From IMG/VR virus record IMGVR_UViG_3300029448_000418, positions 1-24,647 of that record: 24,647 nucleotides of DNA; one strand, 5' to 3'. Every line of letters starts with the position of its first letter. The stretch's first letter is position 1. The stretch comes from a virus. A program made the position numbers and the translations under genes. Of this stretch, positions 7,598 through 13,218 are shown one piece after another. The notes under the pieces were generated by a model. It was given only the letters and a program-made list of their open reading frames with translations, had not been told where the DNA came from and did no database searches.

Positions 7598-8821
7598 ATG
7601 GGCAAGTTAAACAAAGGCGGTTATCTTGGTGGCTTTGACCAACTAAGAGCACCTGACGCACCAACGATAGCAGTTACAGCAGGTAATGAACAATTATCTG
7701 TAGCTATTACTGCTCCCACTTATACCACTGGAACGATTGCTTATTATTGTGCAACTGCTATTGCAGGGGGAGTATCTACAGGTGCTGAAGCCACATCTAG
7801 TCCTGTTACTATTACTGGATTAACGAATGGTACAACATATACTGTTTCTGGTGTTGTTAAAAGTGAGTATGGTTCAAGTCCTTCAAGTGATACAACTACA
7901 ACAAGTCCAACATCTCTTAATTCTAGAGCTTTATTTGGTGGGGGTTACCCTAATACAAACGTAATACAACAAATAGAAATTGCTACAACTGGTAATGCTA
8001 CAGACTTTGGTGATTTGAGTGCTCAAAGAAGTGCAACTACTGCCACATCTTCTAATACAAGAGGTGTGTTTATGGGGGGTAGTCTTAGTAATCAGCAAAA
8101 AGATATTATGGAATATGTAACCATAGCATCAGCAGGTAATGTTACTGATTTTGGTGATTTAAGTGGAGCAAGACAAGCAGCAGCACCTATTTCAAGTAGT
8201 ACAAGAGGAATTATTTGTGGTGGAGATACGTCTAGTAATGGTCAAGGCGGAGTTAATATAATGGAATATATAACTATAGCAAACACAGGAAATACGACAG
8301 ATTTTGGTAATTTAGATACAAATCTGATGAATTTATCTGGTGGGCAAAGCACAACAAGAGGTTTGGTAATGGGGGGTGAGGGAGGTAGTCTTAATAATAT
8401 TGACATAGATGTTCACTACATAACTATAGCATCAGCAGGTAATGTTACTGATTTTGGTAGTTTATCCGCAGCAAGATGTTTTACTAATAATGGTTCTGTT
8501 TGTTCTAATACGAGATGTATTATTGGAGGAGGAGTAGTTGATAATTCTTTTACTGCAACTAATATAGTAGAATATTTTACAACAGGAACTCTTGGTAATG
8601 CCACAGACTTTGGAGATTTAACTGATACAAGATACCCCACGGCAGGAGCAAGCAGTCATGTAAGAGGTGTTTTTGCAGGTGGTAATAGTGCAGGTCCGAA
8701 TGTAAATATTATAGATTATATAACCATAGCATCAGTAGGCAATGCCACTGACTTTGGAGATTTATTAGCTGAAGTTCAAAAAGTTGCAGGGCTTTCTGGT
8801 GCTCATGGGGGTCTTTCATAA
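7598..8821 (+). CDS. Adhesin-like tail protein 1: FN3 domain plus six kelch-like repeats
   Basis: 407 residues. After a short Gly-rich start (LNKGGYLGGF), residues about 18-105 form a fibronectin type III-like domain (APDAPTIAVTAGNEQLSVAI ... 'VTITGLTNGTTYTVSGVVKSEYG'). Residues 109-407 contain six repeats of about 50 residues, each 'tRGvf.GG ... n.i.yiTIAs.GNaTDFGDL..ar'. The Gly-Gly pair closing a strand, followed by a long loop and two further strands, resembles kelch repeats, so a six-bladed beta-propeller is inferred. The protein ends 'AHGGLS', probably completing the ring with the first strand. It is the first of three tandem paralogues; a role in receptor or glycan binding is inferred. 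Confidence 0.7.
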   Translation: MGKLNKGGYLGGFDQLRAPDAPTIAVTAGNEQLSVAITAPTYTTGTIAYYCATAIAGGVSTGAEATSSPVTITGLTNGTTYTVSGVVKSEYGSSPSSDTTTTSPTSLNSRALFGGGYPNTNVIQQIEIATTGNATDFGDLSAQRSATTATSSNTRGVFMGGSLSNQQKDIMEYVTIASAGNVTDFGDLSGARQAAAPISSSTRGIICGGDTSSNGQGGVNIMEYITIANTGNTTDFGNLDTNLMNLSGGQSTTRGLVMGGEGGSLNNIDIDVHYITIASAGNVTDFGSLSAARCFTNNGSVCSNTRCIIGGGVVDNSFTATNIVEYFTTGTLGNATDFGDLTDTRYPTAGASSHVRGVFAGGNSAGPNVNIIDYITIASVGNATDFGDLLAEVQKVAGLSGAHGGLS

Positions 8822-10874
8822 TGGTTAATCGCTCAGGAATATGGGATTTAAGACAAGTAGGTGTTAACGAAGTTAATCAGTTTTGGAAAACTTTATATTT
8901 ATTCCAAAGAGCAGTATTTATGGGTGGGTCAGGGTACGCAGCAGGATCGACAAATGCAGCAACTAATGTAGATTATCGAAATACTATAGATTATGTAACT
9001 ATAACTACAGATGGTAATGCGACTGATTTTGGAGACTTAACAAAAGGTAAACAAAAAAATGGTTCTGCAGGTGCATCTACTACTAGAGCCGTAAATATGG
9101 GAGGCGTTGTGTCTGATACTGGAGGTGGTAGTAATGTTGACAACCATAGTAATCTTATCGATTATATCACACTAGCAACAACAGGTAACGCTACAGACTT
9201 TGGCGATTTAACAGTAGGACGTGCATCTCTTGCAGGAGTAAGTAATCAGACTAGAGCAGTAGCAGGTGGTGGTATACTTAGTGGGGGTTCTAGAAGTAAT
9301 ACAATAGATTACATTACGATAGCCTCTACTGGTAACGCCACAGACTTTGGCGACAGAACTGAAACTTCATACTTACTTGGGGGAAACATACAATCTCCAA
9401 CAAGAGGGTGTTTTCATGGTGGTGACGGTTCTGATGTTACTCCTACTATAGAATATATTACTATAGCAAGTGTAGGTAATGCTACTGACTTTGGTGATTT
9501 AACAGAACAACATTACTCAGGAGCAGGATGTTCAAGTAACACTAGAGGAATAAGAAATGGTGGTCATAATAATTCTGCTGTTGTAAATATAATCGATTAC
9601 ATTACGATTGCAAGCACTGGCAATGCTACAGATTTTGGTGATTTACGCACAGTATTAAGTGGACACGGTTCTACTTCAAATCACACTAAAGGACTTATAG
9701 CAGGTGGAAATTCTCATGCAGCAAATCACGAAATACAAAAAATTACGATAGCTTCTACAGGAAATACCAGTGACTTTGGAGATATGACAGTAGGTAGATT
9801 TGGTACAACTGAAAGTTTTGCTGCAGCATCTGGTGCTCATGGAGGTCTTGGATAATGCCTAAATACACAGGTGGATTTGTAACAAATACAGAAGTAATTC
9901 CTGCAGGAGGTTTTTCTACTAGTGTAGCATCTGGTGTTTGGTCTATTCAAGAAGCACTTATGTATCATAAAGCAGGTATATTTCCAGTGTCAGGAAGTTT
10001 TAATACTATTGGAATGTTTATGGGTGGTAAGGATGGTTCAGATAATCTATTAAACACAATACAAACTGTGAATATTACTACTGGTGGAAACACTACAGAC
10101 TTCGGAGATACAAGTGCAGGTTTTGAAGAGGGATGTGCTGTAGGCAGTGCAACAAGAGCAGTATATCATTTAGGTTATACAGGCTCTATTGTAAATACAA
10201 TTGAATATGTTGCGTTTGCCACAGCAGGTAATGGTGCAGACTTTGGGGATTTAGCAATTACAAAATCTAATAGAGGCAGTTGTGGAAATTCTACAATAGG
10301 TACATTTGGTGGTTCAACTAATAACAGCTTTGAAAATAACATAGACCAAATAAATATTGTTTCAACAGGCAACGCTACGGACTTTGGTGATTTAACCGTT
10401 GCAAGAGGTTCTTGTGGAAATGGAATAAATAGTACAACTAGAGGTTGTTTTTTTGGTGGCCCTACTGATGGTTTTGGTAATAGGTCAAATGTTATCGACT
10501 ATATTACGTTTGGTTCAGCAGGTAACGCTACAGATTTTGGAGATGTAACCAATGGAGACAATTGTAGACAAGGTGGTGGAGCAAGCAGTTCAACCAGAGG
10601 TGTTATGGCACAGGGAAATTCTACAAATGTGCTTAGTTATATAACAATTGCAAACACTGGCAATGCAACGGACTTTGGTGATTTAAGTGCTGTTGCTAGA
10701 AATATAGGTGGGGTCTCTAGCGGTACAATAGGTGCTTTTACTATTGCTAGAACTGTAGTTACAATTGACCAAGTAACCATAGCAAGTACAGGCAATGCAA
10801 CGGACTTTGGTGATTTACTTACAGCTACTTCAGATGGTAGAGGAGCAGCTAGTAATGCTCATGGTGGAATAGCT
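7919..10874 (+). repeat. Eighteen kelch-like coding repeats across three genes
   Basis: Each of the three consecutive genes contains six in-frame repeats of about 140-170 bases. The best-conserved core encodes GN(A/V/T)TDFG(D/N/S)L, with DNA near 'ggtaatgctacagactttgg'. The interval between a GNATDFGDL core and the next TRG--GG pair is fairly constant (about 15-20 residues). The loop after the Gly-Gly pair varies in length and sequence. The shared core offers many short homologous stretches for recombination within and between genes. Confidence 0.8.
8821..9855 (+). CDS. Adhesin-like tail protein 2: six kelch-like repeats
   Basis: 344 residues, with ATG overlapping the previous stop by one base (TAATG). 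The short N-terminus (MVNRSGIWDLRQVGVNEVNQ) lacks the FN3 domain of its upstream paralogue and may serve as an attachment helix. From about residue 29 there are six repeats with 'TRAv.GGG...NTIDYITIASTGNATDFGDL' architecture; repeat 3 has 'GDR' instead of 'GDL', and the sixth starts 'TKGLIAGG'. The C-terminus 'SGAHGGLG' mirrors its neighbours. A six-bladed propeller is inferred. The variable loops after each Gly-Gly would sit together on one face, a plausible binding surface. The exact ligand is unknown. Confidence 0.65.
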   Translation: MVNRSGIWDLRQVGVNEVNQFWKTLYLFQRAVFMGGSGYAAGSTNAATNVDYRNTIDYVTITTDGNATDFGDLTKGKQKNGSAGASTTRAVNMGGVVSDTGGGSNVDNHSNLIDYITLATTGNATDFGDLTVGRASLAGVSNQTRAVAGGGILSGGSRSNTIDYITIASTGNATDFGDRTETSYLLGGNIQSPTRGCFHGGDGSDVTPTIEYITIASVGNATDFGDLTEQHYSGAGCSSNTRGIRNGGHNNSAVVNIIDYITIASTGNATDFGDLRTVLSGHGSTSNHTKGLIAGGNSHAANHEIQKITIASTGNTSDFGDMTVGRFGTTESFAAASGAHGGLG

Positions 10875-10877
10875 TAA
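9855..10877 (+). CDS. Adhesin-like tail protein 3: six kelch-like repeats
   Basis: 340 residues, one-base TAATG overlap with the previous gene and a GGAGG motif at 9841-9845 within the previous coding end. The N-terminus 'GFVTNTEVIPAGGF' then 'ASGVWSIQEALMYHKAGIFP' is a motif I recall from marine phage tail proteins (GVW-SIxEA-type segment before the tail domain). From about residue 49 there are six repeats. They are the most degenerate of the three genes: the Gly-Gly is replaced in repeats 2 (YHLGY), 5 (MAQGN) and 6 (FTIAR), though GNATDFGDL is kept. Ends 'SNAHGGIA'. Probably a third propeller with different surface loops. Confidence 0.65.
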   Translation: MPKYTGGFVTNTEVIPAGGFSTSVASGVWSIQEALMYHKAGIFPVSGSFNTIGMFMGGKDGSDNLLNTIQTVNITTGGNTTDFGDTSAGFEEGCAVGSATRAVYHLGYTGSIVNTIEYVAFATAGNGADFGDLAITKSNRGSCGNSTIGTFGGSTNNSFENNIDQINIVSTGNATDFGDLTVARGSCGNGINSTTRGCFFGGPTDGFGNRSNVIDYITFGSAGNATDFGDVTNGDNCRQGGGASSSTRGVMAQGNSTNVLSYITIANTGNATDFGDLSAVARNIGGVSSGTIGAFTIARTVVTIDQVTIASTGNATDFGDLLTATSDGRGAASNAHGGIA

Positions 10878-10897: not shown

Positions 10898-11254
10898 ATG
10901 GCTCATAAAGTAGTAAAATATAGATTAGAAGCAGACGGTACAATACCAACTTGGTTAAAGTTTGGTGTGTCTCAAAGTACAGGTGGTATGTATCCTATAG
11001 CGGATAATACTTTTTCAAGCCCAAGAGACTATGTAATGATTGGCATTTCAGATGATGGAGAGGCAATACCAACAGATGCAAAGGTAGGTGAGATAGCAAG
11101 TAAAGACGACTTAACAACATATCTTACAAGTATCAGTGTAGTAGATGGCACACAAACTTGGAAACAAATAAATAGTGATGGCGAAGAAGAAGACTTTGTA
11201 CCTGCTACAGCAGCGACTGCAATATGGAATGACTTAGACACATTGAATGGATAG
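10898..11254 (+). CDS. Small hypothetical virion-region protein
   Basis: 118 residues, start ATG 10898 with AAAAGGAAA upstream. It has 'YRLEADGTIPTWLKFGVSQS', 'GGMYPIADNT' and 'RDYVMIGISDDGE' segments, no membrane segment and no recognised motif. The acidic C-terminal part ends in a short helix (AAATAIWNDLDTLNG-like). It follows the adhesin cluster on the same strand and overlaps the next gene by 8 bases, so it is probably part of the tail-tip group or an accessory protein. Function unknown. Confidence 0.5.
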   Translation: MAHKVVKYRLEADGTIPTWLKFGVSQSTGGMYPIADNTFSSPRDYVMIGISDDGEAIPTDAKVGEIASKDDLTTYLTSISVVDGTQTWKQINSDGEEEDFVPATAATAIWNDLDTLNG

Positions 11255-11636
11255 TGCGTATATATACTACAAGAAAATAAATGTAGATGAATTGCAGTAT
11301 GGAGTTAACAGACCTAGTTCGTGGTGGAATGAAATATCTATAAGATTAGAAGGGTTAAATAAAATAAAAAAATCTATACAAGAAGAAGGTCTTAGAAATC
11401 CTTTAATTGTAAATGAAACGAATAACAAATACATAGTTGAAATAGGAAATCAAAGACTTCAAGCTTTAAAGGATTTAAATATAAAAAACGCAGACTGTGT
11501 ATTGTATACAGATACAGAAGATAAAAATTTAAAAGAAATAAAAACATTAGAAGATTTGAATATGTATTTTAAAGACCCAACTTCTTCTTGGAATTATCCA
11601 GAACCTAGCAACAGAAAATTTTGGGGCAGTTACTAA
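11247..11636 (+). CDS. ParB/Srx-like domain protein
   Basis: 129 residues. Residues about 9-90 fit a ParB/sulfiredoxin-like fold: 'INVDELQYG' opening strand, a helix 'LEGLNKIKKSIQEEGLRNPL', then 'IVNETNNKYIVEIGNQRLQA' and 'LKDLNIKNADCVLY'. The GNQRLQAL segment (residues 67-74) is the equivalent of the nucleotide-binding G-H/E-R-R motif of ParB (GxRRxxA), with Asn-Gln in place of the usual acidic/Arg pair. No HTH follows, so it is not a full partition protein. It overlaps the upstream gene by 8 bases and has no obvious ribosome site, suggesting translational coupling. Stand-alone ParB-like proteins occur in phages and some are nucleases or CTPases; which applies here is unknown. Confidence 0.65.
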   Translation: MDSAYIYYKKINVDELQYGVNRPSSWWNEISIRLEGLNKIKKSIQEEGLRNPLIVNETNNKYIVEIGNQRLQALKDLNIKNADCVLYTDTEDKNLKEIKTLEDLNMYFKDPTSSWNYPEPSNRKFWGSY

Positions 11637-11715: not shown

Positions 11716-12546
11716 ATGAAAAATGAATTAGTAGTAAAGACTATAGGAACTTCACTGGTTGATGCAAAACCAGAGTACAAGACTATGCTTGCTAACATAG
11801 ACGAAAAAATGCCAGCGATTCAACATGCATCTTCTAACTTCTATAAATCCCATTCACAGTTTATGAGTGTGACTTTAGACGTAACAGCTATTACACCTAT
11901 ACGTTCTATCAAACACACACTAGCTGAAATAGATAAAACTAAAAGTGCGTTGCAAGAAGCACACATTAATATGCAAAAGAAAGCTGTTAAGTTAAAAAAG
12001 AAACAACGTAAACTAGAGAAGTGTACAGATGATTTAGACAAAGAAATGTTAGAAATAGAAGTACTTGAGCTACAAACGCATTCGTTTAATGCACAAAACT
12101 CTGTACAAGCTGCAGTACGAAAGATGAACTTCTTTGTAAATCAATATGAATCTTTACTTAATCATTTAGGCATAGATGAGATTACAGAAGAAATGTATGA
12201 AGTAGAAGAAAACAGATACCACATAATGACAGCCATGAAACAGGCACTTATATCTGCTAGACCTAGAGGTGGTTCTATAGATGAAGGTAATCAAATATAT
12301 ATGTTTGACTTAGGTATTAGTGGAGCACAGGCACAGGCAGAAGTGTACGCATATCTTAATTTTGAAAATGAGTTAATTAAAAAGGGTCAAGCTCCGACTC
12401 ATGAGCATACTATGCAGTGGTTAGAAGCGTGTGCAGACAAGTTTGCTGATGACCCTAAGAAATTTACACAGCGTAGAGGTTTTACTATACTAGATAAACA
12501 GTCTCTAACTAACACACCTCAGTTAGAGAATAATAATGAACAATAA
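11716..12546 (+). CDS. Coiled-coil hypothetical protein
   Basis: 276 residues; start ATG 11716, with AAGGA at 11701-11705. Residues about 62-145 are strongly helical and charged (IDKTKSALQEAHINMQKKAV, KKKQRKLEK), indicating a coiled coil. A C-terminal globular part follows (RPRGGSIDEGNQIYMFDLG, then 'QAQAEVYAYLNFENELIKKG' and 'HTMQWLEACADKFADDP'). No signal peptide, membrane segment or enzyme motif is seen. I recall similar sequences as unassigned proteins in marine phages. As first gene after the promoter it may be a scaffold-like, regulatory or virion protein; no evidence decides between these. Confidence 0.55.
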   Translation: MKNELVVKTIGTSLVDAKPEYKTMLANIDEKMPAIQHASSNFYKSHSQFMSVTLDVTAITPIRSIKHTLAEIDKTKSALQEAHINMQKKAVKLKKKQRKLEKCTDDLDKEMLEIEVLELQTHSFNAQNSVQAAVRKMNFFVNQYESLLNHLGIDEITEEMYEVEENRYHIMTAMKQALISARPRGGSIDEGNQIYMFDLGISGAQAQAEVYAYLNFENELIKKGQAPTHEHTMQWLEACADKFADDPKKFTQRRGFTILDKQSLTNTPQLENNNEQ

Positions 12547-12560
12547 GGAGTAGTACCATC
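12545..12560 (+). promoter_or_regulatory. Ribosome site and putative AUC start codon
   Basis: AAGGAG at 12545-12550 overlaps the stop of the preceding gene (12544-12546), and 7 bases later comes ATC at 12558. The frame from ATC reads I/M-DPISIALVSF and runs without a stop into the downstream ORF. The first in-frame ATG (12636) has no ribosome site. The spacing is ideal for AUC initiation. Confidence 0.6.
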
Positions 12561-12986
12561 GACCCTATAAGCATTGCCCTAGTTTCATTCACTGCTCTTA
12601 AAAAGGGCATTGCTTTAGGTAAAGACCTTTCAACTATGGGCAAAGACCTAAACAAAGTCTTTGATTTTATTGATGGAACAAAGCAAGCCCAGAAAACTGG
12701 TAATAAAAATGACCCACTCTCCGATTACATTGCCTATGAAAAGGCACTGGACATGGAGAAACAACTAGAGCAGGTCATATGGGAGACAAGAGGGTCAAAG
12801 GGTGTAACTACCTTTAAACGCATGAGAGCACAAGCTACAGAGCGAGACAGGCAGTCTAAGTATGCATCCATTAAAAGACGCAATCAAATAGTTAATGTAC
12901 TTTCTATTATATTTGGCATAGTTGTATTTGCAGGTGGTCTAGTAGGCATGATATTTCTTGCCAAGTATTTACAGGAGTTACAGTAG
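12558..12986 (+). CDS. Small C-terminally anchored membrane protein (probable AUC start)
   Basis: 142 residues if translation starts at ATC 12558; only 116 from the first ATG at 12636. The N-terminal segment (D-PISIALVSFTALKKGIALG) resembles the 'MDPxSIAL' beginning that I recall for small marine phage proteins of this architecture, and AAGGAG lies 7 bases upstream. The middle is helical and charged (residues 50-105). Residues 111-134 form one hydrophobic segment (IVNVLSIIFGIVVFAGGLVG), with basic residues before it, so the protein should be anchored at the C-terminal end with the N-terminal part in the cytoplasm. A role in lysis (holin-like, antiholin) or in ejection is possible; there is no diagnostic motif. 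Next gene begins 1 base after its stop. Confidence 0.6.
   Translation: MDPISIALVSFTALKKGIALGKDLSTMGKDLNKVFDFIDGTKQAQKTGNKNDPLSDYIAYEKALDMEKQLEQVIWETRGSKGVTTFKRMRAQATERDRQSKYASIKRRNQIVNVLSIIFGIVVFAGGLVGMIFLAKYLQELQ
12570..12614 (+). other. Imperfect stem-loop just inside the AUC-started gene
   Basis: Bases 12575-12580 (TGCCCT) pair with 12604-12609 (AGGGCA). After one T-T mismatch, 12570-12573 pair with 12611-12614. This gives ten pairs around a 23-base loop. It begins nine bases after the putative AUC codon. The heptamer GCATTGC is also directly repeated at 12571-12577 and 12607-12613. Confidence 0.45.
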
Positions 12987-12987
12987 T

Positions 12988-13218
12988 ATGGAAATTAGCC
13001 CTATAATATTTTGGAATGTAGTCTTAACACTTATAATAGCACCTGCATTCTGGACATTTAGAAACCTTATGCAGGAAGTTAAACGCATAGATATACTCCT
13101 GAATAGAACAAGAGAAGACTACGCTACTCGTAAAGAAATGAGAGATGACATGAAGTTAGTTGTTGATGCACTACACAGAGTAGAAGATAAATTAGATAGA
13201 GTATTGAGCAAGGAATAA
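12988..13218 (+). CDS. Small N-terminally anchored membrane protein with coiled coil
   Basis: 76 residues from ATG 12988, chosen because AGGAG lies at 12973-12977. A TTG at 12958 would extend the frame but has no ribosome site and overlaps the upstream gene. Residues about 5-23 are a hydrophobic helix (PIIFWNVVLTLIIAPAFW); residues 27-75 are a charged amphipathic helix (DYATRKEMRDDMKLVVDAL, 'HRVEDKLDRVLSK') predicted to form a coiled coil. Paired with the preceding membrane protein, it could belong to a lysis module (holin or spanin-like), or be a membrane-anchored virion accessory. No lipobox or proline-rich spanin mark is present. Confidence 0.6.
   Translation: MEISPIIFWNVVLTLIIAPAFWTFRNLMQEVKRIDILLNRTREDYATRKEMRDDMKLVVDALHRVEDKLDRVLSKE

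Follow-up and report, generated by a model that had tools for sequence, protein, structure and literature searches.

The window, by which we mean the whole stretch of DNA analyzed, is a 24.6-kb record of a marine phage that resembles part of an HMO-2011-like podovirus. Its tail protein is 58 to 62% identical to that of Roseobacter phages CRP-1/2/9/13 and its ribonucleotide reductase is 72 to 73% identical to that of CRP phages, and a DNA-level search found no close phage isolate. The gene studied here lies between a larger gene of unknown function and a small membrane protein gene, and the locus has the following features.

11716 to 12546, plus strand: upstream gene (ORF), 276 aa, helical, function not known; neighbor family F10, PHROG 1409 (unknown function)
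12545 to 12550, plus strand: Shine-Dalgarno (SD) sequence AAGGAG, 7 nt 5′ of the start, read directly from the sequence
12558 to 12560, plus strand: ATC (AUC), the inferred start codon; ATC or ATA stands at the same place in relatives, and protein conservation begins at the next codon
12558 to 12986, plus strand: coding sequence, 142 aa, member of the HMO-2011 gp60 family (PHROG 32327)
12636 to 12638, plus strand: first in-frame ATG, codon 27, interpreted as an internal Met and not a start (weak SD; codons 2 to 26 constrained)
12888 to 12962, plus strand: predicted transmembrane segment, residues ∼111 to 135, with a hydropathy maximum of 2.66 at residues 117 to 135
12988 to 13218, plus strand: downstream gene (ORF), 76 aa, with an N-terminal membrane segment, a coiled region, and an ATG start

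Farther upstream, three adjoining genes (407, 344, and 340 aa; positions 7598 to 10877) have a repeated motif type in common (IDYITIASTGNATDFGDL) and are apparently duplicated fiber or adhesin genes. A small ParB_N-domain protein (Pfam, 8e-7) is encoded at positions 11247 to 11636, between the fiber-region genes and the 276-aa gene.

The first two bases of AAGGAG are shared with the upstream gene's stop codon (TAA, 12544 to 12546), and the spacer TAGTACC (12551 to 12557) separates the motif from ATC. The frame extends from an in-frame stop before position 12540 to the TAG at 12984 to 12986, giving 142 codons counted from ATC, and the codons that lead from the upstream stop to the start (ACA ATA AGG AGT AGT ACC ATC) include no ATG, GTG, or TTG. 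Direct reading thus confirms what the initial annotation had reported, namely, AAGGAG 7 nt before ATC 12558, an open frame, and a first ATG only at 12636; as for its remark that this ATG has no ribosome site, the SD there is weak. The protein was said to be a membrane protein, and it does contain one hydrophobic stretch (residues ∼111 to 135) as the C-terminal anchor of a layout that begins with an N-terminal Asp-Pro helix and continues through a helical middle. The calculated SD duplex energy at AUC is −7.4 kcal/mol with an aligned spacing of 5; as a control, the modal spacing among 154 AUG genes from the same contigs is 4 to 6.

Residues 1 to 140 of the window protein match PHROG 32327 (E = 2e-6), and a profile comparison with the isolate homologs by hhalign gave a probability of 99.6%. 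The protein had no Pfam match, and membership in GTA_holin_3TM (PF11351) was not met; there is one strongly hydrophobic stretch, not three. Structure prediction yielded three helices, the C-terminal one long, at modest confidence (pLDDT of 67), and searches of BFVD and the PDB with this model gave no informative or functional match. A protein search found no relatives in cellular genomes, and no family member was present among the inspected ones of 120 pattern matches in cellular contigs. The HMO-2011 gp60 family, known from marine podoviruses of SAR116 and Roseobacter, has the same sequence family and architecture as the window protein, and gp60 itself adjoins lysis genes. Its isolates, however, start with AUG or GUG, often as Met-Ile-Asp-Pro, whereas AUC or AUA is the start in the window and in two further clades.

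Met-Ile-Asp-Pro (ATG-ATH-GAY-CCN), the usual beginning in isolates, was also found in 66 of 80 further IMG/VR relatives; in 12 of the 80 the Ile position is occupied by ATG, and a canonical start is present in all. Given this prevailing ATG-ATH-GAY-CCN pattern, the window's AUH codon (AUH denoting AUU, AUC, or AUA) is the homolog of Ile2 or Met1, and AUH starts could arise through loss of the preceding AUG or through a third-base change of ATG. One ATA-started member of 148 aa, L384 (IMGVR_UViG_3300012953_000373; GGAGGCAATACT-ATA-GAY-CCN), is the best match to the wide-family profile among the AUH genes (75 bits) and possibly represents a fourth AUA lineage. In two public records (MW202484, L416:3022-3726; MW202462, L417:3025-3690), the annotation begins at an internal codon, 7 to 8 codons past the homologous start position, where GTG and CTA stand, respectively; annotation can therefore misplace such starts.

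To compare starts among closer relatives, we searched IMG/VR proteins, obtaining 36 loci at first and then 80, and aligned the DNA at the start. Conservation begins at residue 2 (Asp/Glu-Pro-Ile/Leu-Ser), without extending to the codon that precedes the start. The start codon is mostly ATG, with some TTG or GTG, and relatives beginning with Met-Pro-Asp-Pro or Met-Val-Asp-Pro have an ATG one or two codons earlier. ATA or ATC is found in three groups.

Clade a: the window (ATC), L118 (L035/L118; ATC), and L041 to L044 (ATA), with the sister contig L045 (ATG)
Clade b: L078 to L080 and L105 (ATA)
Clade c: L051 to L053 and L114 (ATA) and L077 (ATC)

No ATG, GTG, or TTG occurs between the upstream in-frame stop and AUH in these clades except in L080, where an in-frame ATG lies 11 codons upstream, without an SD and inside the preceding gene, which is read in another frame. 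In a tree of 71 proteins, the three AUH clades are separated by clades with canonical starts, and the well-supported (starred) branches force at least four changes of start-codon state. The trait is gene specific: other genes of the sampled contigs use ATG, which rules out relaxed initiation across the genome, and the downstream neighbor, used as a control gene, starts with ATG in 10/10 members of clades a and b, including the window. Across 399 frames, drawn from the window plus 20 stretches of related contigs, no other gene recurrently opened its frame with AUH preceded by a strong SD.

The initial annotation had named a misread base, ATG recorded as ATC, as the main alternative. One base change would indeed make ATG at 12558, and L045, alone in clade a, carries ATG there. 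Against a sequencing or assembly error, ATC recurs in L035/L118, an independent contig that comes from a different metagenome; ATA is found in the close relatives L041 to L044 and ATA or ATC in clades b and c; and 69 of the 76 contexts of the freshwater relatives described below show ATT (from the best 80 of at least 598 relatives). Judged from these comparisons, the error is already refuted for the family as a whole, and we regard its chance of explaining the window as negligible.

A different possibility is that translation begins at ATG 12636 and produces a 116-residue protein; this is the first canonical start and the one that automatic ORF callers choose. Codons 2 to 26, however, are strongly constrained in the AUH lineages: between the window and L041, 14 synonymous changes have accumulated over 19 sites but only 1 nonsynonymous change over 56 sites, a pattern that indicates strong purifying selection. 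In addition to the weak SD before 12636, residue 27 is a structural position that is Met, Ile, or Leu among wider relatives, and the ATG-bearing relatives begin at the position of AUC. A conserved protein beginning at the downstream ATG would have spoken against the AUC start; the relatives' protein begins at the AUC position instead, with each codon aligned from residue 2 (Asp-Pro) onward, and the earlier proposal of initiation at AUC is strengthened accordingly. We consider a start at 12636 highly improbable.

DNA pattern scans, biased by design toward ATH, exposed many genes of the form GGAG-N-ATT-GAY-CCN. A homology search with ten of these pattern-found genes returned at least 598 relatives, the best 80 of which were used and gave 76 distinct start contexts; we refer to this group as freshwater, a working label, as habitat was unchecked contig by contig. 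Within these contexts the start codon was ATT in 69, GTG in 7, and ATG in none, and every one of them was free of ATG, GTG, TTG, and CTG in the interval from the upstream stop to the start. The first Ile was part of one search peptide; when loci found solely through that peptide were left out and only those matching the other peptide were counted, the numbers were 63 ATT, 7 GTG, and 0 ATG. All ATH starts in this sample of the best 80 were ATT (69/69), whereas the internal Ile codons of the branch comprised 353 ATT, 312 ATC, and 148 ATA. Other genes of the same cassettes served as a further control: the family gene started with ATT in 64 cases, GTG in 7, and ATG in 0, the holin-like gene with ATG in 36/36, the spanin with ATG in 40 and GTG in 2, and the endolysin with ATG in 42 and GTG in 1, with nine alignments ambiguous. 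The trait is wider than a single gene: as the initial annotation had not anticipated, it extends across the family, and one branch uses AUU as its standard start.

The relationship of this branch to the window gene was assessed with a wide-family profile, which scored the window at 46.6 bits, the bridging AUU members L438 and L449 at ∼50 bits, the main AUU branch at 9 to 19 bits, and shuffled controls at no more than 4.2 bits. With the main AUU branch, hhalign gave 94.8% over only 28 columns, and direct profile-profile comparison between the window subfamily and the AUU branch was weak. These scores support membership of the freshwater branch in the same superfamily as the window gene, the link to the main branch being weak but consistent. 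One contig that contains a member (L719) has a second, diverged family copy (L720:6421-6960; IDPFTAALAAIA) with TAA directly before ATT.

These data also bear on whether translation might enter from upstream, at the preceding codon (ACC, ACA, or ACT) or by stop codon readthrough or frameshifting, so that AUH would encode an internal Ile. The homology of AUH to Ile2 in the wider family is compatible with this, and some upstream genes are in frame (L041 to L044 and L724). Yet the codon before ATT varies freely in the freshwater branch (AAA, GAA, GAC, ACC, CAA, and others) and is the stop codon TAA in 18 cases (best 80 of at least 598 relatives), upstream genes and their frames differ among relatives, with different genes filling the slot before the AUC gene, and AUU does not vary, in contrast to ordinary Ile codons. 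The aligned SD spacing also fits AUH, at 5 to 6, when it would be 2 to 3 for the preceding codon. Upstream entry is thus very unlikely, and from the comparative evidence we conclude that the gene very probably starts at AUC 12558, a position conserved as a non-AUG start.

An AUH start may be genuine without having regulatory meaning, either because a small amount of product suffices and the codon is tolerated or because it arrived by drift once an upstream AUG had been lost. Loss of AUG from an AUG-AUH-GAY-CCN ancestor would be a simple origin, and AUH, AUG, UUG, and GUG interchange in the window subfamily. What argues against this is the persistence of the codon. AUU stands in 69 of 76 freshwater contexts and AUG in none, although AUG is one mutation away (best 80 of at least 598 relatives), and AUH outlasts deep synonymous divergence, as clade c keeps ATA or ATC although 70% of synonymous sites in codons 27 to 130 differ (46.5/66.7). 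Unrelated holin genes, moreover, have the same start type. A start without meaning seems unlikely, though it remains a serious candidate, and we favor, with some reservation, the view that AUH has been selected for a low dose and has not arisen by drift.

A stronger SD might be expected to accompany such starts. In the window subfamily, 10/10 AUH genes have SD energies of −6.9 kcal/mol or lower, compared with an AUG median of −4.0 kcal/mol (P = 4e-5 by a rank test uncorrected for relatedness); only four independent contrasts are available, which puts significance out of reach, and compensation of the AUH start by a stronger SD is only suggestive in this subfamily. As a general rule it fails, as freshwater AUU members span −2.8 to −8.0 kcal/mol.

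Two further gene types that are not homologous to the window gene carry AUC or AUA starts with AAGGAG. One is a GTA_holin_3TM holin (PF11351, 1e-12; L419:5149-5556 and L729:11024-11434), for which ATC is the sole apparent start; AAGGAG lies 7 nt upstream of it, and the genes that follow encode a membrane protein of 72 aa and an M15-like endolysin. The other is a holin-like family of 121 to 124 aa with ATA or ATC starts (L728:18751-19116, L733:3818-4183, L512, L509, L505, and L423) that begins AAGGAGTATT-ATC-ATA-GAY-CCN and is followed by a 52-aa membrane protein and then a DUF5675 gene. Its homolog in Vibrio phage D526 has an ATG start and directly follows the endolysin.

As to how the window gene may be translated, the 30S subunit would dock on AAGGAG, perhaps aided by ribosomes that terminate the upstream gene at the overlapping UAA. 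Initiator fMet-tRNA (anticodon CAU) would then sit on AUC with a third-position mismatch, and the product would begin Met-Asp-Pro-Ile-Ser. Initiation factor IF3 rejects mismatched initiation complexes, and AUH starts should for that reason be slow and low in yield; the likely purpose would be to keep the amount of this membrane protein, anchored at its C terminus, low and closely controlled. Formylmethionine at the start, IF3 dependence, and low yield are all inferred, without proteomics, ribosome profiling, or reporter data. Two other explanations of the start were discarded. No phage-encoded tRNA that could account for it was found, as there are no tRNA genes in the window or in 26 stretches from contigs with these starts, and no RNA structure appears to hide the start (fold z-score of −0.6, nothing unusual).

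The initial annotation had suggested a possible lysis role. Lysis-gene neighbors are present in most relatives, in which the family gene comes first in the lysis cassette or lies within it and in which Rz (PF03245), M15 endolysin (PF08291), GTA_holin_3TM (PF11351), and lysozyme (PF00959) were identified, and the family gene lies in or beside the lysis cassette in clade c, HMO-2011, the freshwater phages, and many other relatives. In the AUU branch, the usual order, with variations, is a small coiled membrane protein, the family gene (AUU), a 106-aa membrane protein, an Rz-like spanin, and an M15 endolysin; in clade c, it is an XhlA-like protein, the family gene, a small membrane protein, a GTA_holin_3TM holin, and an M15-like endolysin. 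In clades a and b, however, the family gene is 20 to 30 kb from the holin and endolysin, and the lysis link is consequently not universal. In G004, for example, the holin and endolysin are at 11 to 12 kb and the family gene is at 42 kb, and in G008 they are at 41 to 42 kb and the gene is at 21 kb.

The neighborhood support for a lysis role therefore stands for most relatives, is absent in the window's own clade, and leaves the role a hypothesis. A part in the control or timing of lysis is our leading functional reading but a tentative and unproven one, inferred from neighbors. It is also quite possible that the protein acts outside lysis, for example, in superinfection exclusion, DNA entry, or a minor virion role, and that the neighborhood is incidental. 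In clades a and b, the gene lies between fiber-region and virion-like genes, away from the holin and endolysin, and the fold searches yielded no lysis match; the position in or beside the lysis cassette in clade c, HMO-2011, the freshwater phages, and many others argues against this. More speculatively, AUH starts in membrane genes of the lysis region (this family and, independently, the AUC- or AUA-started holins) might form a clock that depends on initiation factors, in which plentiful IF3 would hold synthesis down and a falling IF3-to-ribosome ratio during infection would raise it, tying lysis timing to the translation state of the host. We consider such a clock improbable.

Phage lysis genes with tuned weak translation include lambda S, with its dual start, and the MS2 lysis gene, which starts at UUG. 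Their likeness to the present family, for which both low yield and a lysis role are inferred, would be that weak initiation gives low or delayed synthesis of a membrane lysis protein, but we know of no tuned phage lysis gene that relies on a conserved AUU, AUA, or AUC start. In the literature that we searched, no phage family characterized by AUU, AUC, or AUA starts was described, and there was no paper on a holin with an AUU start or on a non-AUG start in a phage lysis gene. In bacteria, infC of E. coli starts with AUU. In Staphylococcus aureus, infC and ccpN start with AUA and cvfC1 with AUU, and AUA and AUU reporters reach ∼10% of AUG for most and up to 30% in one case (PMC13009471); weak initiation at AUC would fit these data, although the yield was not measured here. 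Streptomyces infC starts with ATC, and the GTC start of sigR is repressed by IF3 (PMC5472188).

Like infC, ccpN, and cvfC1, the phage family combines an AUH start with a recognizable SD and conservation across related species. Those are host genes, however, whose starts have been tested by reporters or genetics, whereas the phage family has no test of IF3 or yield, and it differs from them in being large, with a start type that varies by lineage. The resemblance to sigR is that one member of an operon has a noncanonical start that reduces how much of its protein is made, by inference in the phage gene, while the next gene has its own start; the codon is a different one (GTC), and IF3 repression, which has been demonstrated for sigR, is only inferred for the phage gene.

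Gene finders assume ATG, GTG, or TTG, and AUH-started genes are consequently shortened or misplaced. A family of at least 598 matching stretches has a branch that starts almost always at AUU. If the AUH start is a means of dose control, this would be the first example known to us of IF3-discriminated initiation in a phage family and would allow a simple experimental test of how phages adjust the level of a membrane protein encoded close to the lysis genes. The family adds a large natural comparative set to the study of AUH initiation, which has so far been based on a few bacterial genes.
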